Below are positions 16,480 through 63,716 of a stretch of 64,000 bases of DNA, in pieces (the first letter of the stretch is position 1; each line of letters opens with the position of its first letter). Below the pieces are notes generated by a model. It made no database searches, was not told the DNA's origin, and saw nothing but the letters and a program-made list of their open reading frames with translations. The DNA is from Ampullaceana balthica (lineage: Eukaryota > Mollusca > Gastropoda > Lymnaeidae). Both the position numbers and the translations under genes were made by a program. The stretch covers positions 186,001 through 250,000 of the forward strand of contig CALYLW010000180.1 in NCBI GenBank assembly GCA_944989445.1, read 5' to 3'.

Positions 16480-19428
16480 TTTGGTGCTTTACTTTACTCT
16501 TGAGACCTCCTGGTGCTTTACCCCTGAGACCTCCTGGTGCTTTACCCCTGAGACCTCCTGGTGCTTTACCCCTGAGACCTCCTGATGCTTTACCCCTGAG
16601 ACCTCCTGGTGCTTTACTTTACCCCTGAGACCTATTGCATCTTTACTTTACCCCTGAGACCTACTGGTGCTTCACTTTAACTATTGAGACCTCCTGATGC
16701 TTTACCCCTGATACCTCCTGGTGCTTTACTTTACCCCTGAGACCTCCTGGTGCTTTACTTTACCCCTGATACCTACTGTGTTTTACTTTACCCTGAGACC
16801 TCCTGGTGCTTTACTTTATCCCCTGAGACCTCCTGGTGCTTTACTTTACCCCTGAGACCTCCTGGTGCTTTACTTTACCCCTGAGACCTACTGGTGCTTT
16901 ACTTTACCCCCTGATACCTCCTGGTGCTTTACTTTACCCCTGAGACCTACTGGTGCTTTACTTTACCCCTGAGACCTCCTGGTGCTTTACTTTACCCCTG
17001 AGATCTCCCGGTGCTTTACTTTACCCCTGAGACCTCCTGGTGCTTTACTTTACCCTTGAGACCTCCCGGTGCTTTACTTTACCCCTGAGATCTCCCGGCG
17101 CTTTACTTTACCCCTGAGATCTCCCGGTGCTTTGCTTTACCCCTGAGATCTCCTGGTGCTTTACTTTAACTATTGAGACCTCCTGATGCTTTACCCCTGA
17201 TACCTCCTGGTGCTTTAATTTACCCCTGAGACCTACTGGTGCTTTACTTTACCCCTGATACCTCCTGGTGCTTTACTTTACCCCTGATACCTCCTGGTGC
17301 TTTACTTTACCCCTGATACCTCCTGGTGCTTTACTTTACCCCTGATACCTCCTGGTGCTTTACTTTACCCCTGATACCTCCTGGTGCTTTACTTTACCCC
17401 TGATACCTCCTGGTGCTTTACTTTCCCCCTGATACCTCCTGGTGCTTTACTTTACCCCTGATACCTCCTTATGCTTTACTTTACCCCTGATACCTCCTGG
17501 TGCTTTACTTTACCTCTGATACCTCCTGGTGCTTTACTTTACCCCTGATACCTCCTGGTGCTTTACTTTACCCCTGATACCTCCTGGTGCTTTACTTTAC
17601 CCCTGATACCTCCTGGTGCTTTACTTTCCCCCTGATACCTCCTGGTGCTTTACTTTACCCCTGATACCTCCTGGTGCTTTACTTTACCCCTGATACCTCC
17701 TGGTGCTTTACTTTACCTCTGATACCTCCTGGTGCTTTACTTTACCTCTGATACCTCCTGGTGCTTTACTTTACCCCTGATACCTCCTGGTGCTTTACTT
17801 TACCTCTGATACCTCCTGATGCTATACTTTACCCCTGAGACCTCCTGGTGCTTTACTTTACCCCTGAGACTTCCTGGTGCTTTAATTTACCCCTGAGACG
17901 CCTTAATGCTTTACTTTACCCTTGAGAACTCCTGGTGCTTTACTTTACCCCTGAGACTTCCTGGTGCTTTAATTTACCCCTGAGACGCCTTAGTGCTTTA
18001 CTTTACCCCTGAGACCTACTGGTGCTTTACTTTACCCCTGAGACCTACTGGTGCTTTACCCCTGAGACGCCTTAGTGCTTTACTTTACCCCTGAGACTTC
18101 CTGGTGCTTTAATTTACCCCTGAGACGCCTTAGTGCTTTACTTTACCCCTGAGACCTCCTGATGCTTTACTTTACCCCTGTGACCTCCTGGTGCTTTGCT
18201 TTACCCCTGAGACTTCCTGGTGCTTTAATTTACCCATGAGACACCTTAGTGCTTTACTTTACCCCTGAGACCTCCTGGTGCTTTACTTTACCTCTGATAC
18301 CTCCTGGTGCTTTACTTTACCCCTGATACCTCATGGTGCTTTACTTTACCTCTGATACCTCCTGGTGATTTACTTTACCTCTGATACCTCCTGGGGCTTT
18401 ACTTTACCTCTGATACCTCCTGGTGCTTTACTTTACCTCTGATACCTCCTGGTGCTTTACTTTACCCCTGATACCTCCTGGTGCTTTACTTTACCTCTGA
18501 TACCTCCTGATGCTTTACTTTACCCCTGAGACCTCCTGGTGCTTTACTTTACCCCTGAGACTTCCCTGTGCTTTAATTTACCCCTGAGACGCCTTAGTGC
18601 TTTACTTTACCCCTGAGACCTCCTGGTGCTTTACTTTACTTCTGAGACTTCCTGGTGATTTAATTTACTCCTGAGACGCCTTAGTGCTTTACTTTACCCC
18701 TGAGACCTCCTGGTGATTTACTTTACCCCTGAGACCTACTGGTGCTTTACCCCTGAGACGCCTTAGTGCTTTACTTTACCCCTGAGACTTCCTGGTGCTT
18801 TAATTTACCCCTGAGACGCCTTAGTGCTTTACTTTACCCCTGAGACCTCCTGGTGCTTTACTTTACCCCTGAGACCTCCTGGTGCTTTACTTTACCTCTG
18901 ATACCTCCTGGTGCTTTACTTTACCTCTGATACCTCCTGGTGCTTTACTTTACCTCTGATACCTCCTGGTACTCTACTTTACCTCTGATACCTCCTGGTG
19001 CTTTACTTTACCTCTGATACCTCCTGGTGCTTTAATTTACCCCTGAGACCTCCTGGTGCTTTACTTTACCCCTGAGACCTCCTGGTGCTTTACTTTACCC
19101 CTGATACCTCCTGATGCTTTACTTTACCCCTGATACCTCCTGGTGCTTTACTTTACCCCTGAGACCTCTGGTGCTTTACTTTACCCCTGAGACCTCCTGG
19201 TGCTTTACTTTACCTCTGATACCTCCTGGTGCTTTACTTTACCCTCTGATACCTCCTGGTGCTTTACTTTACCCCTGATACCTCCTGGTGCTTTACTTTA
19301 CCCCTGATACCTCCTGGTGCTTTACTTTACCTCTGATACCTCCTGGTGCTTTACTTTACCCTCTGATACCTCCTGGTGCTTTACTTTACCTCTGATACCT
19401 CCTGGTGCTTTACTTTACCACTGAGACC
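16480..19428. repeat. 29-bp minisatellite (~100 copies) starting at a splice donor
   Basis: About 100 units of a ~29-bp repeat with core GATACCTCCTGGTGCTTTAC, with GAGACC and TCTGATACC variants. It fills the first intron of gene A. The array resumes at 19683-19738 beyond a MITE, and its last unit contains the exon-0 donor itself (minus strand AGAAG|GTAAAGTAAAGC). Every unit therefore carries a GGG|GTAAAGTAAAGC donor-like sequence. A homologous, shorter array lies at 33326-33889. Confidence 0.97.
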
Positions 19429-19682
19429 GGTAAAAGCAAAGAGAACGGTGCGCTCGATAAATGGTATTTTTGGTTTTTATATTTTTTTTCTATTTTAATT
19501 TAAGAAATAGACAACTAAATCTAACCCAGACCCTAAAACTACAACCATATTTACGTTTATGGATAAAAATAATTGCACTTATTATGATTTATTCCCTAAA
19601 AATACAACATTTCATTCCCGGAAGTTACACTCTGCAATAACAATGTAAATAGTTGAGCGCACCGTTCTCTTTTCTTTAGCCC
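19429..19682. mobile_element. MITE inserted in the minisatellite, copy 1
   Basis: Inverted ends GGTAAAAGCAAAGAGAACGG and (reverse complement of right end) GCTAAAGAAAAGAGAACGG, with flanking octamers CTGAGACC and CTTAGACC that agree at 7 of 8 bases. This points to an 8-bp target duplication in the 29-bp array. A second copy is at 35011-35282. Confidence 0.85.
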
Positions 19683-19738
19683 CTTAGACCTCCTGGTGCT
19701 TTACCTTACCCCTGAGACCTCCTGGTGCTTTACTTTAC

Positions 19739-19857
19739 CTTCTCTTTCGAAACAACGGAAGGGCAGTGTGGCCGTTTCTTCCCTTCGACTTCGAATTTCG
19801 GCGACGCCTTCTGTCAGGTGATCGCAGTGGAGATCTTGACCTTTCTCTGCTAGACAT
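19739..19857 (-). CDS. Membrane-protein gene A, exon 0 (SR-rich N-terminus)
   Basis: The minus strand reads MSSRERSRSPLRSPDRRRRR, NSKSKGRNG, HTALPLFRKR (39 codons) to a phase-2 donor AGAAG|GTAAAG. Phase 2 joins exactly to exon 1 (AG+A, Arg, then MPRK). The Arg/Ser-rich start resembles SR-type low-complexity tails. The matching region upstream of gene B keeps SRDRSRSPL...RRQSRSSKR in one frame but its ATG is shifted. The ATG is preceded by a pyrimidine-rich stretch ending in CAG, so a further upstream exon is possible. Confidence 0.55.
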
Positions 19858-19859
19858 CT

Positions 19860-20400
19860 GTCGTCCGAAAAAAAACACGGATGACTTGAAACTTTGGGCT
19901 TTATTACTAATGACCCTATGTAATGTTATGTCCTCAGATCAAACTGCCTTAAGCATAAAGAAATGTTCAGTCACAGTGCTTTGTGGTGACTAAAATAAAC
20001 GTTCTGAGATTTGTACACTCTTGAAGTGCAATGATATATTGTGGTGCGCACTAATCTTTGGGTTCATCTAAACAATTGTTACAAGATAAAAATAAAAAAA
20101 GTCCTTGATAAATTAAACTGCATCAATTGTTCTTGCCCAAATTAACCTTGGCTGATGGTTCTTGTTCAACTAAACTGTAGCAAAATAATATTAATACTGT
20201 TCCCCCCTTACTCCTCATTACATGTCTACATGTATTTGCTTTTCTTTAACAAGTCCTTTCATGCCCCCTCAAGTCTTACATGCTTTCTCCTTAAAAATAA
20301 TCCTTATTTAATCCGTATATATGGAGAGGGGGGAATATGCTGTATGGACAACAGCTAATTCTCCATAATACCCGCCAAGGCTTGCATCAACTTTTGAGAG
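19860..20400. other. Duplicated non-coding sequence upstream of gene A
   Basis: Matches 35440-35750 of the second unit (AAGCATAAAGAAATGTTCA, GTGGTGCGCACTAAT, AACTGCATCAATTG). It may hold the gene A promoter. No convincing core promoter was found. Confidence 0.5.
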
Positions 20401-20485: not shown

Positions 20486-20566
20486 ACATGAGGACTACGT
20501 GAGGACTATGTGAGGACAATGTGAGGACTATGTGAGGACTATGTGAGGACTATGTGAGGACTACGT
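20486..20566. repeat. 11-bp repeat inside LINE endonuclease
   Basis: About seven copies of GTGAGGACTAT/C, immediately after the codons for WNMRT. This is a local amplification in the LINE coding sequence. Confidence 0.9.
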
Positions 20567-21235
20567 GTCCCGGCATCACAGATGACCCGCAGTCTATAAA
20601 CGACACATGGCAAACAGGAATAATTGATAGAGAGCTTAACAGACTGGAGATTGACATTCTATGGCTTCAGGAGACTAGGCTCCCATACAGCGGCTCATTG
20701 AAAGAGACAAATTACACCTTCTTCTGGCAAGGCAGACCTACAGACGAACCAAAACAGCATGGTGTAGGTTTTGCAGTTAAGAACACCCTCATACCATCGA
20801 TTGAACCCCCATCATCAGGCACGGAGAGTATAATCACTCTAAGACTCATAACAGCATCAGCATTAAATGCCTTTGGCAAAAAATCTCACAAAAACACGGA
20901 CTGGTTTGATGCACCTTGGGACGAGATGAAACCTGTCACTGAAGCTAAAAGGAAAGCTCTTAAGGCCTACAAGTAAAAGCATACACCCAACAGGCTGCAT
21001 GCCTTAAAAACAGCCCAGAAAGTCGCACGTCAATGTGCCAATACCTACTGGCTAAACTCTGTGCCAGCATACAGTCAGCTGTAGATATAGGCAATGTCAA
21101 AGACATGTATGAAAATATTAAAGAAGCAACTTGCCCTTTGACGTCCAAGGTTGGCCCCCCCTAAAGTCCAAAAGTGGAGAAATTATCCAAGACCAGGAAG
21201 AGCAGCTAAAATGGTGGATTGATCATTATCTGGAA

Positions 21236-21690
21236 CTGTACGCAACTGTTACCACATTCTCCAGCACTGCTCTATATGACATCAACTGTTACCACATTCT
21301 CCAGCACCGCTCTATATGACATCAACTGTTACCACATTCTCCAGCACTGCTCTATATGACATCAACTGTTACCACATTCTCCAGCATTGCTCTATATGAC
21401 ATCAACTGTTACCACATTCTCCAGCACTGCTCTATATGACATCAACTGTTACCACATTCTCCAGCACCGCTCTATATGACATCAACTGTTACCACATTCT
21501 CCAGCACTGCTCTATATGACATCAACTGTTACCACATTCTCCAGCACTGCTCTATATGACATCAACTGTTACCACATTCTCCAGCACTGCTCTATATGAC
21601 ATCAACTGTTACCACATTCTCTAGCACCGCTCTATATGACAACCCTGTTATGTCAATCAACTGTTACCATATTCTCCAGCACCGCTCTAT
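21236..21690. repeat. 40-bp repeat inside LINE RT region
   Basis: About eleven near-identical 40-bp units with core CTGTTACCACATTCTCCAGC. One unit in frame reads TVTTFSSTALYD, which joins the LINE coding pieces on each side, so the array was amplified from LINE coding sequence. Confidence 0.95.
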
Positions 21691-23769
21691 ATGACAACTC
21701 TGTTATGTCAATCATGGAAGAACTTGATGTCGTGCCCACACCGGAAGAGCAGAACAAAGCAATAGACTGCGTAGCTTGTGGAAAAGCTCCTGGAAATGAT
21801 GGTATACCACCAGAAGTTCTAAAAAATGGAAAGACAGTTTTACCCCAGCCCTTGTACGAGCTTCTGTCCCTCTGCTGGGAACAGGGATACATCCCCCAGG
21901 ACCTAAAGAATGCGAATATAGTGACACTATATACAAACAAGGGCGATAAAATTGACTGCAATAACTATCGCGGCATTTCACTCCTTAGTATTGTAGGAAA
22001 GGCTTTTGCCCTTGTCATACTAACACGATTACAAAATTTAGCCTCCCATTTTTATCCAGAATCTCAGTGTGGTTTCCGGGATGGTCGGACTACCATTGAC
22101 ATAGACATGGTGTTCTAAAAATGGTAGCTCCAAGAAAAATGCAGAGAGCAGCAGGTGCCATTATACATTGCCTTTGCTGATCTTACGAAAGCCTTTGATT
22201 TAGTCAGTCGCAGCGGGCTATTTCAAATCCTTGAAAAAGTTGGCTGCCCCCATCATCAGACAATTCCATGAATATTATGCAGGGTACAGTGCAGTTTGAT
22301 GGAGCTACGCCAGAAACCTTTCCAGTCAGCAGCGGAATTAAACAAGATTGTGTACTCGCACCAACACTGTTCGCAATATTCTTCTCTGTATTGCTTCGAT
22401 ACGCATTCAAGGATAACAATGATTGATTTTGGTTACACGCCAGAGCTGATGGAGGACATTTTAACACTGCTCGCCTCCGAGCCTAAACCAAAAATACAGA
22501 TTTCCTAATTCGCGAGCTACTTTTTGCGGACGATGTGGCATTAACAGCACACACAGAAACTGGTTTGCAACAACCCGTGTCAAGCTTCTCTAACGCCTGC
22601 AAAGAATTTGGTATGCAAATTAGCTTGAAAAAGACAAATATCATGGCCCAAGACACATGTTCTCCTCTTACCATCAATATCGACAATGAAAACTTGGAAG
22701 TTGTGGACAGCTTCACCTACTTGGGATCCCAGGTTTCCAACTCACTGTCCATCGAGGACGAAATAAACAGCAGAATTGGCAAAGCAGCTGCCACAATGGC
22801 TAAACTAAATAAAAGTGTTTGGAAAAACATCAAGCTAACGGAGAAAACCAAACTGTGTGTTTATCGAGCCTACGTCACCAGTACGCTGCTATACGGGAGC
22901 GAGATATTGACCTCTTATACATCAAATGAGCGCAAGCTTAATAGCTTCCACTTGAGGTGTCTGCGTCGCATCATTGGCATTAAATGGCAGGGAAAAGTGC
23001 CGAATAGTGAGATACTGATGCGTACCAATATCCAAAGCATGTTCTCAATCCTTAGTGAAAGACGCCTAAGATGGCTAAGACAGGTAAAAAGAATGAGCCC
23101 GGGTCGTATCCCCAAGAACTGGCATCGGGAAAGAGTAAGACAGGTCACCCACGTCTGCGATTTAAAGATGTCTGCCAGAGAGACATGAAAGCAGCCAGAA
23201 TAAACACAAGCGACTGGGAGTGTAAGGCAGAAGACCGATTTACTTGACAGACAGTTGTCAAAGAGGGCGTCATAGTAGCCGAGGAACGAAGGATGGAGGA
23301 GGCTACAGACAGAAGAGCTAGGAGAAAGGCCAAAACATTGGGAAGCAACGGAATTCGTGTGCAAACTGCAAACGCCGTGGAAAAGACTGCCACTCAAGGA
23401 TAGGACTGCTCAGCCACACGAGGAAATGCAACCCAACCCAACGGTGATGCACCATCGTCTTGCGAGACGGTAGGATGCCGACACACTATCCTTACGTGTC
23501 CAATCATTACATGCCACCTTTTTACATGTTCGCTTATTTTACATTTTACCGACTTACATATCCTCTTCTTACATGGTTTTTAACCTTACATGTCCCGTCC
23601 ATACTAACTATCCCATTATGTTCCATCCTTACGTCTCAAGTCTTTACATTTCTTCTCTTTATTTGCCCCTTTATTTAATTGTTTAAATGTCTAATTTTTT
23701 ATGTCCCTTGGCGCATTCTTTCCATACGTGTATGCCAATGTCAACCGTTTAATACTTTTCGGACTGTTC

Positions 23770-24966: not shown

Positions 24967-25487
24967 GACTTCACTATCCAGGCGCCATTTTTTGTTGTTG
25001 TGAAAATGACTAAAAACAAACTATAAATTAAAAAAAACACAACCAATGTCATACAACTAACAAAATTCAACAATATTTAAGATATACATTCTTAATACAT
25101 TTTTATTGTGATGGTTAAACGTCTACAGCATTAATCTATGTTTGATGTAAGATAGCGCATCATCACCAACACTAATGTTTGATGTAAAATAGTGCATCCT
25201 CACCAATACTTATGTCTTCTTAAGTGATTAATAAACTACACGTTTAAACCAAGGACATATTTGACCTAAAACAATTTAAAACCGAGACCTTTTGATTATT
25301 TCACAGGAGTTAAATATGACAGCCTTGAAAGGTCAATTGTATATTTTTGGATGAGTAACAGAAAGGACAGAATAATTGAATTATTTATCTTTAAGATAGC
25401 TCGGAAGTTGGCTTGTTTATCTTGACAGACTTTGTAATAATGTTACAATACATTTCTTTCCTATTTAAATGTTCACAATCACAGCTG

Positions 25488-25611: not shown

Positions 25612-27014
25612 ACCTCCATTAACTTACAATCTGACTAACAGCCTACATTAACTTACAATCTGACTAACAGCCTACATTAACTTACAATCTGACTAACAGC
25701 CTACATTAACTTACAATCTGACTAACAGCCTACATTAACTTACAATCTGACTAACAGCCTACATTAACTTACAATCTGACTAACAGCCTACATTAACTTA
25801 CAATCTGACTAACAGCCTACATTAACTTACAATCTGACTAACAGCCTACATTAACTTACAATCTGACTAACAGCCTACATTAACTTACAATCTGACTAAC
25901 AGCCTACATTAACTTACAATCTGACTAACAGCCTACATTAACTTACAATCTGACTAACAGCCTACATTAACTTACAATCTGACTAACAGCCTACATTAAC
26001 TTACAATCTGACTAACAGCCTACATTAACTTACAATCTGACTAACAGCCTACATTAACTTACAATCTGACTAACAGCCTACATTAACTTACAATCTGACT
26101 AACAGCCTACATTAACTTACAATCTGACTAACAGCCTACATTAACTTACAATCTGACTAACAGCCTACATTAACTTACAATCTGACTAACAGCCTACATT
26201 AACTTACAATCTGACTAACAGCCTACATTAACTTACAATCTGACTAACAGCCTACATTAACTTACAATCTGACTAACAACCTACATTAACTTACAATCTG
26301 ACTAACAGCCTACATTAACTTACAATCTGACTAACAGCCTACATTAACTTACAATCTGACTAACAGCCTACATTAACTTACAATCTGACTAACAGCCTAG
26401 ATTAACTTACAATCTGACTAACAGCCTACATTAACTTACAATCTGACTAACAGCCTACATTAACTTACAATCTGACTAACAGCCTACATTAACTTACAAT
26501 CTGACTAACAGCCTACATTAACTTACAATCTGACTAACAGCCTACATTAACTTACAATCTGACTAACAGCCTACATTAACTTACAATCTGAATAACAGCC
26601 TACATTAACTTACAATCTGACTAACAGCCTACATTAACTTACAATCTGACTAACAGCCTACATTAACTTACAATCTGAATAACAGCCTACATTAACTTAC
26701 AATCTGACTAACAGCCTACATTAACTTACAATCTGACTAACAGCCTACATTAACTTACAATCTAACAGCCTACATTAACTTACAATCTGACTAACAGCCT
26801 ACATTAACTTACAATCTGACTAACAGCCTACATAACTTACAATCTGACTAACAGCCTACATTAACTTACAATCTGACTAACAGCCTACATTAACTTACAA
26901 TCTGACTAACAGCCTACATTAACTTACAATCTGACTAACAGCCTACATTAACTTACAATCTTACCAACAGCCTACATTAACTTACAATCTGACTAACAGC
27001 CTACATTAACTTAC
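25612..27014. repeat. 29-bp minisatellite (~48 copies) starting at a splice donor
   Basis: Nearly uniform 29-bp units with core CATTAACTTACAATCTGACT. On the minus strand each unit contains ATTGTAAGTTAATGTAGG, and the array begins exactly at the exon-3 donor of gene B (ACT|GTAAGTTAATG). It occupies most of intron 3. Gene C has the homologous array at 41885-42694 with about 27 copies. Confidence 0.97.
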
Positions 27015-27097
27015 AGTCATTCGTCAAATCATCCACACCTTACAGTATTGACGATCTCCGCTGTCTGGATGCAGATTACTTCTTAGCGCTGGAGGAT
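27015..27097 (-). pseudogene. Membrane-protein gene B, exon 3 with two in-frame stops
   Basis: Acceptor TCTCTGACAG, donor ACT|GTAAGT, 83 bases, phase 2 in and 1 out, the same as gene C. In the conserved frame it reads SSSAKK, stop, SASRQRRSSIL, stop, GVDDLTND. Both stops are TAA where C has codons for Ser and Phe. The intact splice sites and flanking exons suggest recent loss, unless the base calls are wrong. Confidence 0.7.
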
Positions 27098-27099
27098 CT

Positions 27100-27540
27100 G
27101 TCAGAGAAATTACAATTATTCATAAAGAAATAGTGTACAAGAGAAATTACGAAACATGGCATTTCAATTACTAACAACAAATCATTGGTCCATTTCATAT
27201 ACAAGTTGCTAAGTCTAGCATTGTTTTTATTTGAACCTTTTTTGTGTGTATAGTCTCAATTTTTTAAGATTGTAACTAATGTTAATGCTTTAATTCCTAC
27301 CAATCTTGTCAAGAATCATTTTAATTAGTCCCCCTCCCCATTTCATTTTAACCCGTCGTTTCGCCTCCACCGCCCCTTACGCAAAGGCCCAGGTCCCAAT
27401 ATAGGCGTGTGTCTACAGCGCAGCCAGAGAGTCATTATTTTAACTAACCAGCTAGTCTGCCAGGTATTCACCAACCACAAGGTCTTTCTTGATTATCATC
27501 AGTAATAACGTTTTCTTGTAATTCCCCCGAGACTAACAGC
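27100..27540. other. Duplicated intron sequence, empty site for the 8.2-kb insertion
   Basis: Matches 42780-43190 and 51403-51470 of the second unit. Near 27450 the text CCAGCTAGTCTGCCAGGTAT is continuous where the second unit is interrupted by the hAT-bounded insertion. Confidence 0.75.
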
Positions 27541-29830: not shown

Positions 29831-30260
29831 TGGCGTAGCTAGGGGAGGGAGTTCCAAGTCGAAAGTCCCCCCAGGCCCCCACTTGAGGTAGGCCCCCAAA
29901 GGAGTGTTCACTCATGCCGGTTAACCAGCCATCGATGACCACATCCCCATGTTTACAGCAAGGGGAGTTCAGCAGTCTGTCAATGTTTGTCACGCGATCC
30001 GTTTAAAGTTTAAAGAAATAAAAATTTTGATATACTCTATGATTTTACACTTAGACTAAAAAGAATAAAATAAAAAGAGTTAAAAAAGATTTTTAATTTC
30101 CTTTAAAAAGTACCGACTAAGATAAAGATTAGGACTAGATTGTTTGTAATTGTCTAACGATAAAATTTATTTTAATGGCAAAAAATATTTGATTTTCATT
30201 AATCCTAATGCTAAAATAAAACAACTCAAATAATTTTTAAATGATTTTTATAATCCATAC

Positions 30261-30408
30261 TTGAAGTCATTCCATGATTTAAAAACTGCTACCATAATCA
30301 TGGATAGAAAAGCCGCTACACCAACAGTAGTTTCCACCTGCCAGCCCTCTAAAGAAGCCAGATGAGAGAAAAATAACCCTGCACCTCCCATCTCGTCCAG
30401 ATCTTGAA
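30261..30408 (-). CDS. Membrane-protein gene B, exon 2 (transmembrane segment)
   Basis: Same borders and phases as gene A exon 2 (acceptor CTGTTTTCAG, donor CAA|GTATGG). The frame is intact: VQDLDEMGGAGLFFSHLAS, LEGWQVET, a hydrophobic TVGVAAFLSMIMVAVF and KSWNDFK. It differs from A at 19 of 148 bases (9 residues), while about 110 bases on each side differ at only 5-6 positions. Confidence 0.7.
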
Positions 30409-30949
30409 CTGAAAACAGATCATTGTTTATTCTGAGTAAACTGTTGCATTTTTATTAAAGAACGGGTTCTCATCCCATGAGTCGCGACCCCCAAGAGAGA
30501 ATTCCACGTCGGGCCGTATGAGGGGGCACCAAATTATACAGCAAAATAACAAAATATTCAGCGCAATGACATTTTTAAAATTTATTATTGAGGCCTGAGT
30601 TGATATTCTGTGAATCGTGTCTTGAAATGAAAGATGAAATCAATTAGTTCCTGGACGTTCAAGTGAAGCATGTCCTTTTGAAATATTGTAACGAAAAAGC
30701 CTGGTTTAAAAGAGTAATTTATTTAGGACATATATTAGACCATCAAAATAGGTTTAACCCTAAGATTTAGGGAAAGTACCGAATATTATTACATCCGAAT
30801 ATTATTACATTTTATGATAATGTCAAAAGGCATTAAAAAAAACTTAAGCTGTAACAATGACGAAAAAAAAATCTTGGATAATATTGTCATGTTTTAAGAA
30901 ACTGTGCAGTGTAGTAAATAAATCTAAAAGTGAAATTAATTAAATTTAG

Positions 30950-31410
30950 AGGAGGGAATTACTGGGCATCTAGAATACGTTGAAAAGAAATTCCAGGGAA
31001 ACTTCACTGAGCTGCAAGAAGAAAAACTACACAGACATGAAATTCCATTCTCTTCTTCCGTTTGATGTAGCCAGCATTGCCAAAAAAAAATTACAAGATG
31101 GATTCTTGAATTTGCAAAATGATTCGTCAGCGAGTAACTTGCTTAATGAAAAATTTCTCACACAATTATGATATGGTAAGTGTGAATCGTTCCAAAATGT
31201 CACGATGTTTGCCTTTTGAGCAGTTCCATTTTTGCTGCATTAGTAGCATGAGCTTTTAAATTGTATTACAAATCTATTTTTGTGTTGTACTTGTTGGTGT
31301 GTGTTTTTATTTTGTTTTTAAAAAAAATAATCTCATTAAAAAATTTTCTTCATGAGTCGAGGATCACATTTATAAAAAGGGGCCGCCACTCGCCACCCGA
31401 AAAAGTTTGG
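30950..31410 (+). pseudogene. hAT (Buster/ZBED-like) 3' fragment, copy 2
   Basis: Duplicate of 14230-14765: reads QEEKLHRHEIPFSSSV with a frameshift, then DVASIAKKKLQDGFLNLQ and ends with the same GTCGAGGATCACATTTATAA terminal region. A stretch after 31240 is deleted relative to copy 1. Confidence 0.7.
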
Positions 31411-31565
31411 GTACCTGTGTTAGACATAAGTGCATCTGTAGTATGGACTGGTGTTAGACATACATTTATCTGTAGTCTGGACTAGTGTTACGCATACATG
31501 CATCAGTAGTCTGGGCTAGAGTTAGACATACATACAACTTTAGTCCTGGCTAGTGTAAGACATGC
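31410..31565. repeat. ~35-bp minisatellite, duplicate
   Basis: About four copies of the GCATCTGTAGTCTGGACTAG unit, fewer than the seven at 14770-15012. Confidence 0.85.
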
Positions 31566-31712
31566 ATTTAACACAATTGTAATATGAGTAATTTATTTTA
31601 GATAATCATGTGATCTAAGATATTTTATTAATCAACGATTAGATATTACTATTCAGAGCGAAACTCAGGAACTACTTGCAAGTCTGGTATTGACCGCAGT
31701 ACAGTGTATTAC

Positions 31713-31794
31713 CTTGTTCTTTTTTCCCACATTTTTTCCCCGCTAGATTCAATCCCAAAGATGATAACAGACCGGAAGCTTCTTTCCTTGGCAT
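31713..31794 (-). CDS. Membrane-protein gene B, exon 1
   Basis: Encodes the same 27 residues as gene A exon 1 ([16 protein letters not shown], then [11 protein letters not shown]), with donor CAAG|GTAATA. The acceptor has changed from CCACAG in A to CCAGAG here. Splicing after GAG keeps the phase. It is intact by itself, but the preceding exon-0 region is shifted. Confidence 0.65.
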
Positions 31795-32469
31795 TCTCTG
31801 GATTCTGTAGACACAGATTCCCGGCGTATTAATTAAAAAATTATTTACAGCTAAATTTTAAAATAAAATGGTCGTAGAAATAATTATTAATAAATATTTG
31901 GAGTTAAGCAAATTAATTGAGAAATAAATTATACATTCAATAGCACTGAATCTAAAATTTATTTTAGCTTCGGTAAATATCATTCTAATACAAATACGCT
32001 TTAGTTTTAATGCAATGAGCAAAAGCTATGTTCATAGTGTGGGGAAGGGGCAAGACATGGCGTGAGGAACAGGAGTTTGGAAAGACTTAAGTGTTTACAC
32101 CATAAACTGTTTGTTGAAAATTTTCTGAGAGAAATCTTCATAGACTTCGGTAGGGCTCAGCATTCCCCGCTGTTCTTGCTGATAGGGAGCCGGAACTGCA
32201 TGTCATAGAGTCATCACTGTAAAGTATGGAGACAGACACGATTTCATTTAATTGAGGGCCAAGAACCAAGGAACCCATTAAAACAAATCTTTAACATCAT
32301 GGAGATCCTGGTAAATCGCCGTCGTTCTTCCAGTGATTACTAACTAGTACAGTGTTACCAACTGGCTGCCAACACTTGAAGTGTTCGTGTTAACTGCTCT
32401 GTTCATAAGATGCTGAAATTTACCGGATCCCTACAAACTGCCCGTGTTCTGGGTAAAAAGCTCCCAGAC

Positions 32470-32666
32470 CAGGGGTCAGTACATGGGGCTCGCGAGCCGT
32501 ATGCGGCTCTTTCAAAGTCAAGTTGAGGCTCTCCAGTTCTATGCGCATATATAAATAATTATATCATTTTGTTTTCAAACTCATGCTAGCAGCTCTTTAA
32601 AAATGTGGGAAAATTATTAAATTGTAATTTTTTGTCTCTTACGTCTCAAAAGGTTGTCGACACCTG
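32470..32666. mobile_element. hAT-type MITE with target duplication, copy 2
   Basis: Same element as 15905-16102. Here the 8-bp duplication TCCCAGAC is perfect (32462-32469 and 32667-32674), which defines the ends: CAGGGGTCAG on the left and GTCGACACCTG on the right. Confidence 0.92.
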
Positions 32667-32849
32667 TCCCAGACTTAAGATACGTAGCACAGTAGTGGCA
32701 GGACAAATGTTTTATATGCCCTTTCCTTCCCTTTAAAGTTGGCGATATTATATTTAGCCCAATGTAATTGCTTATAATAATTCGTGTTGTTGACATTAAA
32801 GTGTTCAACTGTGCCAGCAGGCTATGTTACAGAGTGCCAAGTGCGGTGG

Positions 32850-33090
32850 TGCGGGAATACACCGATAGATTGTTGCAGTTGTAAAGACAAATACACCGAT
32901 AGATTGTTGCTGATGTAAAGACAAATACATCGAGAGATTGTTGCTGATGTAAAGACAAATACACCGATAGATTGTTGCTGATGTAAAGACAAATACATCG
33001 AGAGATTGTTGCTGATGTAAAGACAAATACACCGATAGATTGTTGCTGATGTAAAGACAAATACATCGAGAGATTGTTGCTTGTTTAAGA
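32850..33090. repeat. 34-bp minisatellite, expanded copy
   Basis: About seven copies of a unit with core AGATTGTTGCTGATGTAAAG, alternating CCGATAG and TCGAGAG variants. Frames on the minus strand are repeat shadows. Confidence 0.95.
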
Positions 33091-33325: not shown

Positions 33326-33889
33326 TTTACTTTACCCCTGATACCTCCTGGTGCTTTACTTTACCTCTGATACCTCCTGGTGCTTTACTTTACCCCTGAT
33401 ATCTCCTGGTGCTTTACTTTACCTCTGATACCTCCTGGTGCTTTACTTTACCCCTGATACCTCCTGGTGCTTTACTTTACTACTGATACCTCCTGGTGCT
33501 TTACTTTACCCCTGATACCTCCTGGTGCTTTACTTTACCTCTGATACCTCCTGGTGCTTTACTTTACCCCTGATACCTCCTGGTGCTTTACTTTACCCCT
33601 GATACCTCCTGGTGCTTTACTTTACTCCCTGATACCTCCTGGTGCTTTACTTTACCTCTGATACCTCCTGGTGCTTTACTTTACTCCTGATACCTCCTGG
33701 TGCTTTACTTTACCCTCTGATACCTCCTGGTGCTTTACTTTACCCCTGATACCTCCTGGTGCTTTACTTTACCCCTGATACCTCCTTGTGCTTTACTTTA
33801 CCCCTGATACCTCCTGGTGCTTTACTTTACTCCCTGATACCTCCTGGTGCTTTACTTTACCCCTGATACCTCCTGATGCTTTACTTTAC
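33326..33889. repeat. 29-bp minisatellite (~19 copies) starting at a splice donor
   Basis: Same unit as 16480-19428 (core GATACCTCCTGGTGCTTTAC), in gene B's first intron. It ends at the exon-0 donor (minus strand AGAAG|GTAAAGTAAAGC). Confidence 0.97.
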
Positions 33890-33976
33890 CTTCTTTTACT
33901 TGATCGTGATTGACGCCTTCCGTCGGGTGAGCTTGGTGTCAAAGGTGACCTTGACCTATCTCTGGAACCCAGACAT
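33890..33976 (-). pseudogene. Membrane-protein gene B, exon 0, start out of frame
   Basis: The minus strand keeps SRDRSRSPLTPSSPDGRRQS followed by RSSKR up to a phase-2 donor AGAAG|GTAAAG, matching gene A's SRERSRSPLRSPDRRRR. The ATG at the homologous place is in another frame and reaches a stop after six codons, so this copy cannot start as A does. With the two stops in exon 3, gene B appears to be a pseudogene. A frame open on the plus strand across this region is likely incidental. Confidence 0.5.
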
Positions 33977-35010: not shown

Positions 35011-35282
35011 GGTAAAAGCAAAGAGAATGGTGCGCTCGATAAATGGTAATTTTGGCTGCTATATTTGTTTTTTTCTATTTTAATTTAAAAAATAGACAAC
35101 TAAACCTAACCCAGACCCTAAAATTACAACCTTAATTACGTTTATGGATAAAAATAATTGGACTTATTCCCTTTTTAAGTGTAATAAATACAACATTTCA
35201 TTCCCGGGAGTACGCGCTTATCTTTATCCATAAACGTAATTAAGGTTGTAGTTTTGAGCGCACCGTTCTCTTTGCTTTAGCC
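35011..35282. mobile_element. MITE, copy 2 of the 19429 family
   Basis: Inverted ends GGTAAAAGCAAAGAGAATGG and (reverse complement of right end) GGCTAAAGCAAAGAGAACGG, about 85-90% alike to 19429-19682. It is not at the homologous position, so it is a separate insertion. Confidence 0.8.
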
Positions 35283-41749: not shown

Positions 41750-41885
41750 ATACAACACGACGTTCTTACAACCTGACTTAAATACAACCTGACTTAAATA
41801 CAACCTGACTTAAATACAACCCGATTTACATACAACCTGACTTAAGCACAATCTGACTTACAACCCTACCTTCAAGCTCACTGAC
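41750..41885. repeat. Degenerate ACAACCTGACTTAAAT repeat
   Basis: About six short irregular units leading into the 29-bp array. Confidence 0.7.
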
Positions 41886-42694
41886 AATCTAACAACCTAC
41901 ATTAACTTACAATCTGATTAACAACCTACATTAACTTACAATCTGATTAACAACCTACATTAACTTACAATCTGATTAAAAACCTACATTAACTTACAAT
42001 ATGATTAACAACCTACATTAACTTACAATCTGACTAACAACCTACATTAACTTACAATCTGACTAACAACCTACATTAACTTACAATCTGACTAACAACC
42101 TACATTAACTTACAATCTGATTAACAACCTACATTAACTTACAATCTGACTAACAACCTACATTAACTTACAATCTGACTAACAAACCTACATTAACTTA
42201 CAATCTGATTAACAACCTACATTAACTTACAATCTGACTAACAACCTACATTAACTTACAATCTGACTAACAACCTACATTAACTTACAATCTGACTAAC
42301 AACCTACATTAACTTACAATCTGACTAACAACCTACATTAACTTACAATCTGATTAACAACCTACATTAACTTACAATCTGACTAACAACCTACATTAAC
42401 TTACAATCTGACTAACAACCTACATTAACTTACAATCTGACTAACAACCTACATTAACTTACAATCTGATTAACAACCTACATTAACTTACAATCTGACT
42501 AACAACCTACATTAACTTACAATCTGACTAACAACCTACATTAACTTACAATCTGATTAACAACCTACATTAACTTACAATCTGATTAACAACCTACATT
42601 AACTTACAATCTGATTAACAACCTACATTAACTTACAATCTGACTAACAACCTACATTAACTTACAATCTGATTAACAACCTACATTAACTTAC
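41885..42694. repeat. 29-bp minisatellite (~27 copies) starting at a splice donor
   Basis: Homologous to 25612-27014 but with AACAACC in place of AACAGCC and mixed GACTAAC/GATTAAC variants. It begins exactly at the exon-3 donor of gene C (minus strand GATT|GTAAGTTAATG), and each unit repeats ATTGTAAGTTAATG. Confidence 0.97.
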
Positions 42695-42777
42695 AATCAT
42701 TCGTAAAATCATCCCCATCAAACAGGCTTGACGATCTCCGATTTCTCGATGCAGATGACTTCTTAGAGCTAGAGGAT
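42695..42777 (-). CDS. Membrane-protein gene C, exon 3
   Basis: Acceptor TCTCTGACAG, donor ATT|GTAAGT, 83 bases, phase 2 in and phase 1 out. The open frame reads SSSSKKSSASRNRRSSSLF and DGDDFTND: a Ser/Arg-rich stretch and then an acidic end, as in gene A exon 3. It is the intact counterpart of the stop-containing gene B exon. Confidence 0.7.
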
Positions 42778-43238
42778 CTGTCAGAGAAATTAAATTGATA
42801 AAGAAAGAGTGTCAAGAGAAAATTACGAAATATGGGTTTCAAATTACTAATAACAAATCATTGGTCCATTTAATATACAAGTTGCTAAGTCTAGAATTGT
42901 TTTTTTTTCTTAGGAAAAAAATTGTATAATCTTAATTTTGTAAGATTTTACCAAGTTTCAATTCTTTTATACTCACAACCTTATTAATAATCTTTTGTTT
43001 TAAATTAGCCCCCCCCCCGTCCTTTCCATATTAAGCCGTCTATTTGCCTCCACCGTCCCTAACGCAAAGCCCCAGGTCCCAATAGAGGTGAGTGTCTGCA
43101 GCGCAGCCAGAGAGAGAGAGCCATGCCATTCATCTAGCTAATCAGCCAGTCGGTCAGCCGGACATACAGCTAGCCAGTCAGAAAGTTAATCATCTAGTAC
43201 AGCGGTCCCAACCCTTTTTTTCGGGTGGTTACTCTTTT

Positions 43239-47838: not shown

Positions 47839-48151
47839 AACCCGGGAAAAGCCGGGTACTTGCCCCTAGGTTGTGGAGCACGTACTGGAGAGTGGTAGTT
47901 TAGAACTTAAGTCGGTCATTAAAACGGGTGAGGGCTACATGGCGGCACACCCAACGGTGACATTGACACTAGAAGGTAAACCGGTCACAGGGAACCAGCG
48001 AGCTCAAGGGAGGGGTGAAGAAGGTAGAACCGGAGAAAATTACCAATGGAGGGGAGCGGGCAATTATATAGGTAGGGGATATGGCAATTATATAAACAGG
48101 GGAAATAAAAGATGACAAAAAGGTTGTTTTGCAGGGAGTGGGGGAGATATT

Positions 48152-49087
48152 GTGAACAAGAGTGGGGAAGTTAATGGGGTTAGAGTTAGGGTTGTACGGG
48201 ACACGGGGTGTGGAATCGTGGGGGTAAAGGAATCCTTACTCGAAAATGGTTGTTTTACAAATGAGACAGTCACGTGTATATTGTTTGATGGGGAGAGAAA
48301 AGTTTATAGAGTAGGTTATATACACGTAAAATCACCGTACTTTACGGGATGGACAAAGGCTGCCCTACTAAAGAGACCACCAGTTGACCTAATAATTGGA
48401 AATATCAAGGGATCTACCATGGGATGGGAGAAAAGTGGTCGGGGAGATTTCAGAGACGGAAGTAGAGCTGACCGGGTGGGTCGTAGATATGGTGATAATG
48501 GTGGAAGAGACTGTTATAAAGGTGGAAGGTCGGGAAATTGGGTCAGAGACTGCCGCACTGGGCCCGTCGGCAGTGCTACAATTGAGAAATACCGCGGAAG
48601 GCAAAGTCGGGAAAGAGACAGTTACGGATACACTCGAATTACTAGGAAACCGAGATGGAAGGTAAAGGGGGCTCAGAATCAGCAAGGGTACAACAGTATT
48701 AAAAACTATACAGAAGTATTAGCGGGGGCAGTAGTGACAAGAGCGCAGGGCAAACACCCCAAACAATCGAATCCATTAAAAAGACACATGACAGAACTGA
48801 ACATAACGGTAGAGGAGTTTAGAAGATTACAGAACAATGACGTCACTTTAAGACAAACCCATGAGCACGCGAACAGACAGAGGGGAGATGAGAAGTTAAA
48901 TTCACAATTTAAATACAATGAGGGACTTTTAGTGAGAGAGTATTATAACGCAGAGTCCAGTCATAATACTAGGTGGGAACAATTGGTTGTACCCGAAGCA
49001 CTGAGAAAAGTCATATTGGAGGTAGCCCATGATAATAATTTATCAGCGCACATGGGGAATAGCTCGCACAAAGGCGCGAGTGCTTGA
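48152..49087 (+). pseudogene. Gypsy-like protease and integrase zinc-finger frame
   Basis: A 311-codon frame. Residues about 10-90 hold the aspartic protease (DTG at about residue 19, LIIG at about residue 75). A Gly/Arg-rich stretch with a damaged zinc knuckle follows. From about residue 210 come ELNITVEEFRRLQNND and the His half of the integrase HHCC module. The frame shifts before the Cys half, which continues at about 49080. Confidence 0.75.
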
Positions 49088-49860
49088 AGAGTTTTGGTGG
49101 CCGGGTGTAGCCAGTGACGTACGGTATCACTGTAAGACATGTGATGTGTGTCAAAAAGTTAAAAATAAAAGCGCCGGTGGGATAGCTCCACTAGGCGAAA
49201 TGGAGTTGATAAAAAAATCATGGAGTAAAGTAGCAGTCGACCTTATTGGGCCAATAATACCAATGTCACAGAAGGGATATCGCTATATCCTCACTCTGGT
49301 AGACACAGCGACTAGATGGCCAGAAGCAATACCACTGAAAAGAATTGGTGCCGAAGACATACAGGAAGCACTTCTCATCATATTTACAAGAATGGGATTA
49401 CCTGATGAGATATTGTCAGACAACGGCAGTCAATTTAAGTGTGATTTAATGGCCCAGGTCACTAAACTAATGGGAATAACCCAACGTTTCAGCACCCCCC
49501 CTACACCCACAGAGCAACGGGATGGTGGAGAGGTTCAATGGTACACTTAAAACATTACTCACTAAACTATCAATCGAACAACCGAAAGACTGGGAAGCCC
49601 ACGTACCCGGGATATTATTCGCTTATCGGGATGTTAAGCAGGAATCAACAGGATTTTCCCCATTTGAACTAATGTTCGGGCGAAAAATAAGAGGCCCCAT
49701 AAATATCCTTAGAAATATTTTTGATGGAAGAAATGAAAAGATAGAGGGGCAAAAGCCACACGAGTATCTAGATAAATTACGAGAGAGATTACGGGTAAGT
49801 GGCACACTTGCGAGCAAGAACTTGAAAGCAGCGAAAGAAAAACAAAAAAAAATTGTATGA
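49029..49860 (+). pseudogene. Gypsy-like integrase core (frameshifted)
   Basis: Two overlapping frames join at about 49510-49540 across a C-rich slip (CACCCCCCCTACACCCACAG). The catalytic aspartates fall in VDLIGP and SDNGSQF, and the third acidic motif region reads VERFNG. The usual -NGMVER- is disrupted by the frameshift. Confidence 0.75.
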
Positions 49861-50473
49861 TCGTAAAGCCAGAAGAAGAGAGATTACAGTAGGGAGTCTT
49901 GTTGTGGTGATGAAAGCTTCGGGGGGGGGGAGTAAACTACAAAGAGCTCGATGGCATGGGCCATATAAAGTCGTGGGAAAAGTGGGGGATTGTAACTATA
50001 TAATCCTTGAAAAAGGGAAAAGGAAAACATATCATATCAATATGTTAGTAGAATATTTTAGGAGGGACCAATCAGGACAAAACCAGACTGAAACTGGTAT
50101 GGATAATAATATTAAGAACAAGGCGACAGTTACTGCTTATTCAGTAGTTATAGAAGATAACGAGACAGAAAATGAGGACCCAACCATTAACGCACTGACC
50201 ACTCAGACTATTGGGGTTAAAGAATCGGTGAAAGACGTAAAAATTAATCCCGATCTCAAATATTTTGACAGAGAAAGAATAGAAAAAATATTAAATAAAT
50301 ATGCTGACATAATAACTAACATACCAGGGAAATCCACTGTCGTGTCTCACTCTATAGAGTTAAACACGGACAAACCAATCTGTCTGAGACCATACCCTAT
50401 ACCCTTCTCATCAAAACAAGAAATAATAAGGGAAGTTCGGCAAATGGAAGATGAGGGCATTAACATATCATAA
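49853..50473 (+). pseudogene. Gypsy-like GPY/F module joined to RT N-terminus
   Basis: One frame runs from the integrase C-terminus (VGSLVVVMKAS, RWHGPYKVVGKVGDC, YHINMLVEYF) through an acidic linker into the region just before gypsy reverse transcriptase (ERIEKILNKYADIITNIPGK, SHSIELNTDKP, RPYPIPFSSKQEIIREVRQM). This contiguity is the evidence for integrase-before-RT order. RT motifs beyond the first are missing because the satellite begins. Confidence 0.75.
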
Positions 50474-59480: not shown

Positions 59481-59784
59481 TATCTTTTCATTTGGTCCTT
59501 AAACTTAATGTAAAGTATTCTTAAACACGGTGTTTTTTTTTAAATATCTCTTTATTATATCATGAAGACTAACTATAACTTTCTTTTAGTTTTAATGAAA
59601 TATTCCTTTTCCTTGTAACGTGTGCAGATCACCACAAAAACACTCACTACGTAATAACATGTTTGAATATCTTCTGTGTGTTTAGATTTTTGAAATAGTT
59701 CCATCAACAGGGGCTTAGTTAACTTATTTAAGATAGCTGCAGGGAATTAGTGGTTTTAAAAGACTTCAATTTGAGACATCAGAG

Positions 59785-60070
59785 GTCCCTGTAGGTCAGG
59801 CAGGTCGTGATGATGGGGCAATCAGGGGTCCCGTTATGTCAGGCAGGTCACAATGATGGGGCAATCAGAGGTCCCTGTAGGTCAGACAGGTCGTGATGAT
59901 GGGACAATCAGAGGTCCCGTTAGGTCAGGCAGGTTGTGATGATGGGGCAATCAGAGGTTTCTACTGGTCAGTCCGGTCTCTATGATGGGGCAATCAGAGG
60001 TCCCTATATGTCAGGCAGGTCGTGATGATGGGACAATCAGAGGTCTCTGTAGGTCAGGCAGGTCTCGATG
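59785..60070. repeat. ~43-bp minisatellite overlapping the GH18 last exon
   Basis: About seven units with core GGTCAGGCAGGTCGTGATGA. The last unit (60030-60070) overlaps the end of the GH18 coding sequence, so the array was seeded from the exon's 3' end. Confidence 0.92.
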
Positions 60071-60183
60071 ACTTTGTTCCACAGCGGAAACGGGCCAAGT
60101 TCACACCCTGCCCCTGTGACGTCATCATAATTCAGCGAGTTTAGAGAGACTCCTCTTAGTTTTTTAAATATGACAGTGCTCAC
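60037..60183 (-). CDS. GH18 chitinase-like gene, last exon (X3)
   Basis: Acceptor TTTTAACAAACAG, 49 codons, stop TGA at 60037-60039, phase 0. It reads VSTVIFKKLRGVSLNSLNYD, DVTGAGCELGPFPLWNKVIE, TCLTYRDL. This aligns with the end of GH18 catalytic domains (usually GGxMxWxxDxDDF.G..C..G.FPL). The conserved Trp of the last barrel strand is Asn here (VSLNSLNYDD), so the protein may be a catalytically altered chitinase-like lectin. It ends right after the domain with no CBM14. Confidence 0.7.
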   Translation of the reverse strand: MSTVIFKKLRGVSLNSLNYDDVTGAGCELGPFPLWNKVIETCLTYRDL

Positions 60184-60702: not shown

Positions 60703-60825
60703 CATATGATTGACACCTAACTTGTCCAAGTAGCCGAGCCAATGAGAAGAATCTTTGTAAACATTGGCCTCATAGTCGTAAGTGTAGTAAATGGTCGGTT
60801 TGTAGAGATTGATCAGCTCACAAGC
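60703..60825 (-). CDS. GH18 chitinase-like gene, exon X2
   Basis: Acceptor TTTGAACAG and donor ATG|GTAACA enclose 41 codons in phase 0: ACELINLYKPTIYYTYDYEA, NVYKDSSHWLGYLDKLGVNH, M. It corresponds to the GH18 segment with (Y)xEIC...YD...PY...W.GYDD. The first Gly-Tyr pair after Trp (HWLGYLDK) is the expected W-x-G-Y motif. All exon junctions of this gene are phase 0, which supports the join. Confidence 0.72.
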
Positions 60826-60839: not shown

Positions 60840-61415
60840 ACCAAAGTCATGAGGGAAAACGATAGTTTATTAACTTCCATGTTGTTGTTTTATTTTTAAA
60901 AACAAAATATAGAGAAAAGAATTGATTAATTAAATAAAGCCTAACAGTAAATTTAAAGCTTTATTAATGGACCAATGTTAAAACGTGTACTTATGACTTA
61001 AGAACGCTTGTAAACTACCTTCTTATGAAAATAAAGTTACACGAATGATTAGACTAACTGTCTAAAACATTCCTTTAAAAAAAGACCAAATTACATGCAC
61101 GCATATACATACAAACGCATACATTCGCGTGTACACTCGTTTACACGCTCACACGCACACGCATACGTTCACGTGCACATGTAAGTTTTCAAATGAATGC
61201 ACCTGCCTGTCAATTTGTGTTTGATAAGTGAACCACCAGGGACGTCGCCCACCTTTTGGAAGCCCCCTTGCAAAATGTGTGTTTTTCCCCTTTGCTTTCA
61301 AAGTTGGTCTTGAAATTTCTCTACCAATCTTAATTTTGGGTATTTTACTTGGCGAAGCCGACATTACACAAAGCATAACCCAGAAGGTTTCACAGTACTC
61401 TCTATGATTCCTTTT
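60840..61415. other. Intron, no clear feature
   Basis: AT-rich intron of the GH18 gene with a short CACGCA/ACGCATAC-rich tract at 61095-61190. The minus frame at 61149-61376 has no support. Confidence 0.5.
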
Positions 61416-61424
61416 TATAAATGT

Positions 61425-61875
61425 TACCTTGCTAGAAATCTGACTATAATTGTTACATCGCTAGGACTCATGATTACAATTGTTACCTCGCTAGGACTCA
61501 TGATTACAATTGTTACCTCGCTAGGACTCATGATTACAATTGTTACCTCGCTAGGACTCTGACTATAAATGTTACCTTGCTAGGACTCTATTTTACCTTG
61601 CTATGACTGTATTGTTACCTCGGTAGGACTCCTGATTATAATTCTTATCTCGCCACGACTCTGACTATAGCTGCTACCTCGCTAGGACTCTAATGTTACC
61701 TCGCTAGGAATCTAATGTTACCTCGCTAGGACTCTATTGTTACCTCGCTAGGACTCTAATGTTACCTCGCTAGGACTCTAATGTTACCTCGCTAGGTCTT
61801 TATTGTTACCTCGCTAGGACTCTAATGTTACCTCGATAGGTCTCTAATGTTACCTCGCTAGGACTCTATTGTTAC
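61425..61875. repeat. ~21-30 bp minisatellite starting at the GH18 X1 donor
   Basis: About 17 units with core GTTACCTCGCTAGGACTC in ~21-bp (CTAAT/CTATT spacer) and ~30-bp (CATGATTACAATT spacer) forms. On the minus strand each unit reads GCGAG|GTAACA, matching the X1 donor GTGAG|GTAACA where the array begins. Confidence 0.95.
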
Positions 61876-62058
61876 CTCACTATAAGGAACCACTCCATCG
61901 AGCCCAGTCAGTGGTGATTTCGAAGGTCCGGAGCAAGGCGAGTTTATCTTCAGAGTTTGATGTGGGCCCACCGCTACGTACACGCCGTAAAACGGGATGA
62001 TGATGGTCAGCTTACCCCATGGGTGACCCCAGTCAATCCAGGTCTCAATGTCTCTGAT
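61876..62058 (-). CDS. GH18 chitinase-like gene, exon X1
   Basis: Acceptor ACATTTGCAG and donor GAG|GTAACA, 61 codons, phase 0 at both ends. It reads IRDIETWIDWGHPWGKLTII, IPFYGVYVAVGPHQTLK, SPCSGPSKSPLTGLDGVVPY, SE. WIDWGHPWGKL...IPFYG is the GH18 block usually written W...G.P..KL..G.P.YGR; the Arg after YG is Val here. The catalytic DGxDxDWE block should lie in an upstream exon outside or near the window edge. GH18 proteins hydrolyse or bind chitin, usually after secretion. Confidence 0.82.
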
Positions 62059-62764: not shown

Positions 62765-62975
62765 GAGTTAGGGGCCGTTTTGACCGGGGCCATTTTGAAC
62801 GGGGCCGTTTTGACAGGGGCCGTTTTGACCGGGGCCATTTTGACCGGGGCCATGTTGACAGGGGCCGTTTTGACCGGGCCGTTTTGACAGGGGCCGTGTT
62901 GACCGGGGCCGTTTTGACAGGGGGTCGTGTTGACAGGGGCCCTTTTGTCAGGGGTCGTTTTGTCCGGGGCCGTCT
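62765..62975. repeat. 15-bp minisatellite
   Basis: About 13 units of TTTTGACCGGGGCCG with variants. The pentapeptide-like VLTGA frame is a repeat shadow. Confidence 0.95.
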
Positions 62976-63017
62976 TGTCGGTGAGCCATTAAATTAAATG
63001 AAAATGATGTTTGCTCT

Positions 63018-63205
63018 AGCACAGTGGCGTCATTGGGTAGGTGCGAGGGTGCGGACCACACCGGGTGAAACCGTCACAAACGGAGACACCTACGGGTAAA
63101 ATTCTGTATGTTCCCTTTATTTTTCACAGGCAGACCCGGAGGAGGGTAAGTTGTGAGGCGGTGACACCATGACCTAACGCACTGGGTGACACTAATCCTA
63201 GTGAC
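63018..63205. mobile_element. MITE-like fragment
   Basis: Starts CAGTGGCGTCATTGGGTAGG and contains GCGGACCACACCGGGTGA, like 8043-8135 (GCGGACCGCCCTGGGTGA). The right part GGTGACACTAATCCTAGTGA could be the other end. No target duplication established. Confidence 0.5.
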
Positions 63206-63264
63206 GACTCTGCTCTAGCTACCTACTATTAAATAAAAAGCCTCATGTTGTTTTTTTCCTAGCA

Positions 63265-63715
63265 ACTTACCATGGCCTTAAAAGCAACGTCATGTTTGCC
63301 AAGCTACATACCATGGCCTTAAAAGCAACGTGATGTTTGCCAAGCTACATACCATGGCCTTAAAAGCAACGTGATGTTTGCCAAGCTACATACCATGGCC
63401 TTAAAAGCAACGTGATGTTTGCCAAGCTACATACCATGGCCTTAAAAGCAACGTGATGTTTGCCAAGCTACATACCATGGCCTTAAAAGCAACGTGATGT
63501 TTGCCAAGCTACATACCATGGCCTTAAAAGCAACGTGATGTTTGTCAAGCTACATACCATGGCCTTAAAAGCAACGTCATGTTTGCCAAGCTACATACCA
63601 TGGCCTTAAAAGCAACGTGATGTTTGTCAAGCTACATACCATGGCCTTAAAAGCAACGTGATGTTTGCCAAGCTACATACCATGGCCTTAAAAGCAACGT
63701 GATGTTTGCCGTGGC
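63265..63715. repeat. 40-bp minisatellite with a donor in each unit
   Basis: About 12 nearly perfect units with core TACCATGGCCTTAAAAGCAA. On the minus strand each reads AAGGCCATG|GTATGTAGC, a good donor match, and the right-most unit abuts a possible exon (63683-63716). Confidence 0.97.
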
Positions 63716-63716
63716 T
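63683..63716 (-). CDS. Possible small GH18 exon at the array edge
   Basis: After a plausible acceptor (TTCAAACTGCAG) come 34 bases ending ATG|GTATGT. In the frame ending in phase 0, as GH18 X1 requires, it reads HGKHHVAFKAM, reminiscent of the helix after the GH18 catalytic block (K.NF..LLKAM). It is very short, and the same bases recur in all 12 repeat units, so the call is speculative. Confidence 0.2.

Follow-up and report, generated by a model that had tools for sequence, protein, structure and literature searches.

The stretch of DNA considered here, 64 kb of Ampullaceana balthica contig CALYLW010000180.1 (positions 186,001 to 250,000; hereafter the window), contains minisatellites that begin within a few bases of 5' splice sites (donors) and repeat a donor-like word through many of their units. 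We think it quite probable that these are boundary minisatellites of the kind called 'mirages' in amphioxus, that is, tandem duplications laid over an existing exon-intron border and tolerated there, with the exon-adjacent donor continuing to be the one that is used.

Tandem Repeats Finder (TRF) called 85 rows of tandem arrays over the window, which merge, at periods of at least 9, into 48 minisatellite loci covering 16.8 kb. Five arrays begin 1-7 bases 5' of donors that have array-independent support, from homology or from phase. (Coordinates are window positions, and features lie on the minus strand unless marked otherwise.) Relative to the donor G, the array starts at -1 behind exon 0 of the predicted gene A (donor 19738) and of its relative B (donor 33889), at -1 behind exon 3 of B (donor 27014), at -4 behind exon 3 of a third relative, C (donor 42694), and at -7 behind exon X1 of a GH18 gene (donor 61875). 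Counts of intact donor words in each window array show the splice signal to be carried by many units, which is one of the marks of a mirage. The five arrays represent three independent origins, since the A and B arrays share one segmental duplication (13450-14520 with 30150-31238, 90%; 14872-16386 with 31417-32950, 94%) and the B and C arrays another (24987-25469 with 40810-41291, 87%; 26177-27431 with 41848-43114, 88%). An earlier note on this DNA had claimed that arrays begin at donors in independent genes and introns. With regard to position the claim is borne out at the five supported donors but not at 63.27-63.72 kb, where the exon is not established; with regard to independence, three origins survive, the remaining arrays being segmental duplicates.

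Exon 0 of gene A (19739-19857; MSSRERSRSPLRSPD...LFRKR) ends in phase 2 at the donor AAG/GTAAAG at 19738 and joins exon 1 in phase. Its RS-rich frame recurs in B, and phase together with this common frame is the support for the exon-0 donor, which is weaker than that for GH18 X1 and exon 3. The 29-bp array that follows (16482-19739 by TRF; ~105 units) is divided after its first two units by an inserted element with inverted ends (19429-19679), a relative of which lies at 35011-35211. The 29-bp array of the B exon-0 intron (33326-33890; 19 units) is a duplicate of the A array. Since all 65 occurrences of an exact 21-mer of their unit in the 1.10-Gb genome fall inside the A and B arrays, this is a local array and not a dispersed satellite. 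The 29-bp array of the B exon-3 intron (25613-27015 by TRF; 49 units) makes up 1402 of ~1456 intron bases, provided that the acceptor reading at 25558 is correct, and its 29-bp duplicate in C (41889-42698; 28 units) follows the donor ATT/GTAAGT. When spliced, exons 0-1-2-3 of A match in phase and give an open frame of 140 residues; exons 1-2-3 of C also match and give one of 114. B, which has two stops in exon 3 and a shifted start in exon 0 (read by eye from the alignment), looks like a pseudogene. No significant relative of the A, B or C protein pieces was found in Pfam, PDB or protein searches.

The exons of the GH18 case are supported by homology. X1 (61876-62058) ends in ...GVVPYSE followed by a GTAACA donor, and X2 (60703-60825) begins ACELINLYKPTIYYTYDYEANV...; the spliced peptide ...GVVPYSE-ACELINLYK... 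aligns without gaps through the junction with chitinase-3-like 2 and chitotriosidase (best E 3.9e-12, among solved structures). The spliced product scores 1.9e-5 against Pfam Glyco_hydro_18, which is under the curated cut-off; the GH18 fragment, when compared with protein sequences, returned nothing at E 0.001, and neither the window nor genome stretches L009-L013 gave a hit when scanned for the GH18 catalytic motif. The X1 intron array (61415-61882 by TRF; units of 22/30 bp) has GAG/GTAACA or a close variant in most units, and the final seven exon bases match the array unit at six positions. Another array of the same gene, of 43 bp (59778-60071 by TRF), starts in the terminal exon and crosses the stop codon: its first unit consists of the last codons and the stop, and later copies form the 3' flank. 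Exon-edge arrays are therefore not restricted to donors, which argues against an origin that is based on U1.

The other exon edges examined in the window are free of such arrays. No array starts within 8 bases of the donors of exon 1 or of the transmembrane exon in A, B or C, of A exon 3, of GH18 X2, or at either donor of a plus-strand CBM14 gene. In gene A these are exon 1 (15169-15251), with the nearest array 150 bp into the intron, exon 2 (transmembrane; 13561-13708), and exon 3 (12905-12975), whose donor ACA/GTAAGT at 12904 is followed, 36 bases into the intron, by an array of different sequence. A single-copy trace of the B/C exon-3 unit was sought in A, and the best match is not significant (345 of 2000 shuffles are equally good). 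None of the 12 acceptors in the window has an array edge within 30 bp, the closest lying at 35 and 55 bp. The 63-kb candidate is a 41-bp array (63254-63710 by TRF) with ATG/GTATGT in its units, which extends 30 bp into the proposed exon. That exon is a single open frame of 33 residues, for which neither Pfam nor PDB gave a match; a scan for a five-residue motif matched FGRAY in it, which is too short to count.

Might these coincidences of array and donor be no more than that? In a genome dense in minisatellites some arrays will overlap donors by chance, and this window was picked for showing several. For the window test its donors were collapsed to eight families (exons 0, 1, transmembrane and 3 of A/B/C; X1 and X2 of GH18; the two of CBM14). 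An array starts at -8 to +3 in three of the eight. When all arrays were shifted rigidly together, 7 of 63,999 shifts reached this number (mean, 0.13). Without exon 0 there are two of seven families, with 394 of 63,999 shifts as high; on a seven-family set that does not include exon 1, three are reached in 5 of 63,999 shifts and in 5 of 50,000 independent random placements of the arrays, and removing exon 0 from that set as well raises the number of shifts to 203. Wider limits weaken the result: three families and 232 shifts at +/-20, four families and 856 shifts at -40 to +80. Since the window was selected on the pattern, all of these shift-test numbers flatter it. Donor-like words (score at least 5.5) are not clearly enriched in the repeat units of the window, where they occur in 11 of 39 non-redundant units vs 8.0 expected, with 34 of 300 shuffles as high. 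The small offsets of 1-7 bases and the rarity of matching shifts, with duplicates collapsed and even with exon 0 left out, nevertheless speak against coincidence.

Sampling beyond the window favours it. Twenty arbitrarily spaced 10-kb stretches of the genome have 13.5% of their length in arrays, and 5 of their 148 array edges begin at a donor-like word. That is about the background (1028 donor-like words outside arrays, ~3.6-3.8% per 12-base window) and constitutes no excess, though an effect of a few percent would still be compatible with it. Most arrays lie away from donors. (The longest open reading frames of genome stretches L009-L033 are mostly transposon-like in appearance.)

A sample of exon ends chosen without regard to arrays comes from the myosin head. 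A search of the assembly (1,097,344,711 bases in 3363 contigs) with the Pfam myosin-head model gave 80 exon matches. Of these, 25 with internal stops, 4 that reach the end of the model, 1 in a very long open frame and 3 short of letters were excluded. The other 47 exon 3' ends, listed before any array was inspected, were each taken with 400-450 intron bases, so that only 5' borders were sampled; the last 7 were fetched, in list order, once analysis of the first 40 was complete. Six ends have no clear donor, and in 4 of the remaining 41 an array covers or adjoins it: arrays at donors do recur elsewhere in the genome. (The donors of ends L036 and L052 are doubtful; dropping both gives 4/39.) In L037 the period is 32 and 8 copies extend from -19 to +242, with 19 exonic bases in the unit and an identical second donor 34 bp downstream of the first. 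L059 also has 19 exonic bases in its unit (period 33, 14 copies, -19 to +447), and in L055 (period 61, 5.5 copies, -49 to +283 by TRF) 42 exonic bases are clearly within it. In these three the tandem unit spans the exon-intron boundary as a mirage does, with an exonic share of 19 to about 45 bases. In L069 (period 39, 12 copies) the array runs from +3 past a donor that was set by hand from the alternative exons L073, L075 and L076; the automatic pick, 31 bases downstream and inside the array, would also count as a case of an array spanning the donor. L069, the window exon-0 and exon-3 arrays (which start no more than 4 bases from the donor) and GH18 X1 (7 bases before it) are, taken singly, borderline for spanning the boundary. 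L069 and its three alternatives, all at approximately HMM (hidden Markov model) positions 118-160, stand in a row at 316-320 kb of contig C430, apparently within one myosin gene, like a cluster of mutually exclusive exons.

Eight further arrays start deeper in the myosin introns (in 18.1 kb). If arrays started as freely in coding DNA as in introns, which is the null adopted, 0.7-1.3 would be expected over a donor, vs the 4 observed, and P is 0.035-0.081, varying with the width of the window and the test used. When only starts within the first four intron bases are counted, 1 is observed vs 0.07 expected (P 0.07-0.08). An excess of arrays at donors is likely, not proven. The earlier note's proposal that amplification favours exon-intron borders has modest support: the window shifts and the myosin ends speak for it, and the random stretches do not. 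That coincidence accounts for the whole of the pattern seems to us rather unlikely, even with its P values no lower than these. Coincidence, moreover, bears on enrichment alone and is compatible with an anatomy that is due to duplication over a border. A more far-reaching reading would be an active, genome-wide process seeding minisatellites preferentially at 5' splice sites, at about 1 donor in 10, through some border-specific driver such as co-transcriptional breaks or R-loops, with introns continually gaining ladders of donors; we think this rather unlikely.

The course of events that we favour, the mirage one, would start with a short tandem duplication spanning a pre-existing 5' splice site and comprising 0 to about 45 bases of exon and 13-39 of intron. 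Slippage or unequal exchange would then lengthen the array, on the intron side, to 5-100 units. The first, exon-adjacent donor would stay intact and be spliced, the exon would be unharmed, and the later donors would be by-products. The exon bases inside the units, in three of the myosin cases and, to the extent of seven bases, in GH18 X1, show the duplicated segment to have extended across the border. Growth directed into the intron would leave exon and first donor unchanged. At exon 3 and in two myosin pairs the donor is older than the array, since array-free relatives have the same donor: A exon 3 for B and C, and the paralogous exons L039 (of L037) and L056 (of L059), neither of which shows an array over the 450 bases of intron taken. 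Such presence in one paralog and absence from another, within a single assembly, bears indirectly on copy-number instability, a further mark of mirages. These relatives, and the 19 exon bases in the L037 and L059 units, stand in the way of the reverse order of events, in which an older intronic array supplied a replacement for an original donor that had decayed, its first donor-like unit being recruited. Such recruitment, too, would result in splicing from a donor at the edge of the array. It suits the exon-0 case of A and B, where an array-free relative did not turn up and the unit has little or no exonic match; as a general account we regard it as improbable.

A second suggestion of the earlier note, that the repeated donors may be used as decoys, for example to hold U1 small nuclear ribonucleoprotein (snRNP) or to buffer mutation of the donor, finds little support, and the same goes for decoys that slow splicing. 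In the A array, the most divergent (104 aligned rows), the mismatch in donor columns is 0.073 vs 0.076 in the others, and 13 of 29 circular blocks are better kept. The donor hexamer is, to be sure, invariant in all aligned units of four other arrays, those of B exon 0 (20 rows), B exon 3 (49), C exon 3 (28) and GH18 X1 (the 10 proximal rows only); the two exon-3 arrays count as a single origin. It is tied there with other blocks that are equally invariant (9, 7 and 15 of 29 in B exon 0, B exon 3 and C exon 3, and 5 of 22 in GH18 X1), and none is better kept. The invariant words in these four uniform arrays leave room for some constraint. Distal GH18 X1 units, which lie outside the conservation count, include altered donor words, paralogs manage without an array, and splicing at a decoy would bring in an in-frame stop, which lies at base 2, 12 or 16 of the intron in the three cases. 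Because decoys in the A array are not better kept and decoy use would add a stop, tolerated slippage is favoured over function, which we think very improbable.

Several points weigh against the mirage reading. Use of the first donor, like normal splicing of the mRNA, is a prediction from the consistency of phase. The exonic share of the window exon-0 and exon-3 arrays, 1-4 bases, is below that of typical mirages, and the donor hexamer is invariant in the four uniform arrays. Nor is it obvious that neutrality alone would lead to arrays at three of eight donor families within a single window. We infer that slippage drives the growth, that splicing uses the first donor and that the decoys lack a function.

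Other repeats in and around the window may be mentioned briefly. A 24-bp array of ~2.3 kb crosses the window start (window 1-251 and 7924-10000 of stretch L012) and includes in each unit sequence a strong donor word, GGGTGAGT. An 18-bp array near the window (L010, 1-5303) has ~294 copies. About three quarters of the CBM14 intron at 3758-4189 (+) is a 21-bp array (3826-4155), which begins 68 bp past the donor and ends 35 bp short of the acceptor. At 20536-23188 (+) lie the remains of a non-LTR (long terminal repeat) retroelement with reverse transcriptase, and at 48116-50473 (+) those of an LTR-type element with integrase core and H2C2. Among the best 120 of 1016 matches to a retroelement in the window, the closest named relatives are from the gastropod Batillaria (67-68% identity); Branchiostoma belcheri reaches 59% and one further contig 86%. 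This is indirect evidence for a gastropod host.

A recurrent mirage structure in a gastropod suggests a more general route of intron growth. Paralogous exons that have the same donor with and without an array would, in addition, allow the choice that the spliceosome makes among tens of near-identical donors to be tested in a natural setting. The original amphioxus Adh paper is reportedly that of Canestro et al., of 2002. The earlier note knew of no named class of repeat like this; the amphioxus mirages match it (PMC3087553, PMC3902484). They occur in Adh3, TnC and the globins BflGb6/9, with similar structures in Rdh and presenilin, and RT-PCR (reverse transcription-PCR) suggests that they are regularly spliced (PMC3087553); PGBD5 has repeats of 60 and 108 bp located at its splice sites, which were compared to the Adh and TnC mirages (PMC3902484). 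Units of the Adh3 mirage measure 10-72 bp, a range within which the units here, 22-61 bp, fall. The host here is instead a gastropod, the largest array reaches ~105 units and 3 kb, and the start of the window arrays all but coincides with the donor. Amphioxus mirages also affect 3' borders, whereas none of the 12 window acceptors has an array edge within 30 bp; the genome test covered 5' borders only. Literature searches found no mirages named outside amphioxus, and no molluscan or gastropod case in titles or abstract openings, which leaves room for a report within a full text.

Among other known systems, a minisatellite of C. elegans has been tied to alternative splicing (PMC4039745). Human internal tandem repeats at exon-intron boundaries, in genes within segmental duplications, are likewise ~30-bp minisatellites in recent paralogs, but transcripts show that exons are altered or introns created there (PMC2812944); there is no sign of an altered exon here. 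The Rogers model of intron gain through tandem duplication of AG/GT proto-splice sites (discussed in PMC3087553) shares with the present arrays a tandem duplication that includes the donor. Creation of a new intron by the duplication was considered and does not apply to exon 3 or to the two myosin exons, whose array-free paralogs already have the donor. The difference from the Rogers model is one of order: wherever an array-free paralog can be compared, the donor predates the array.

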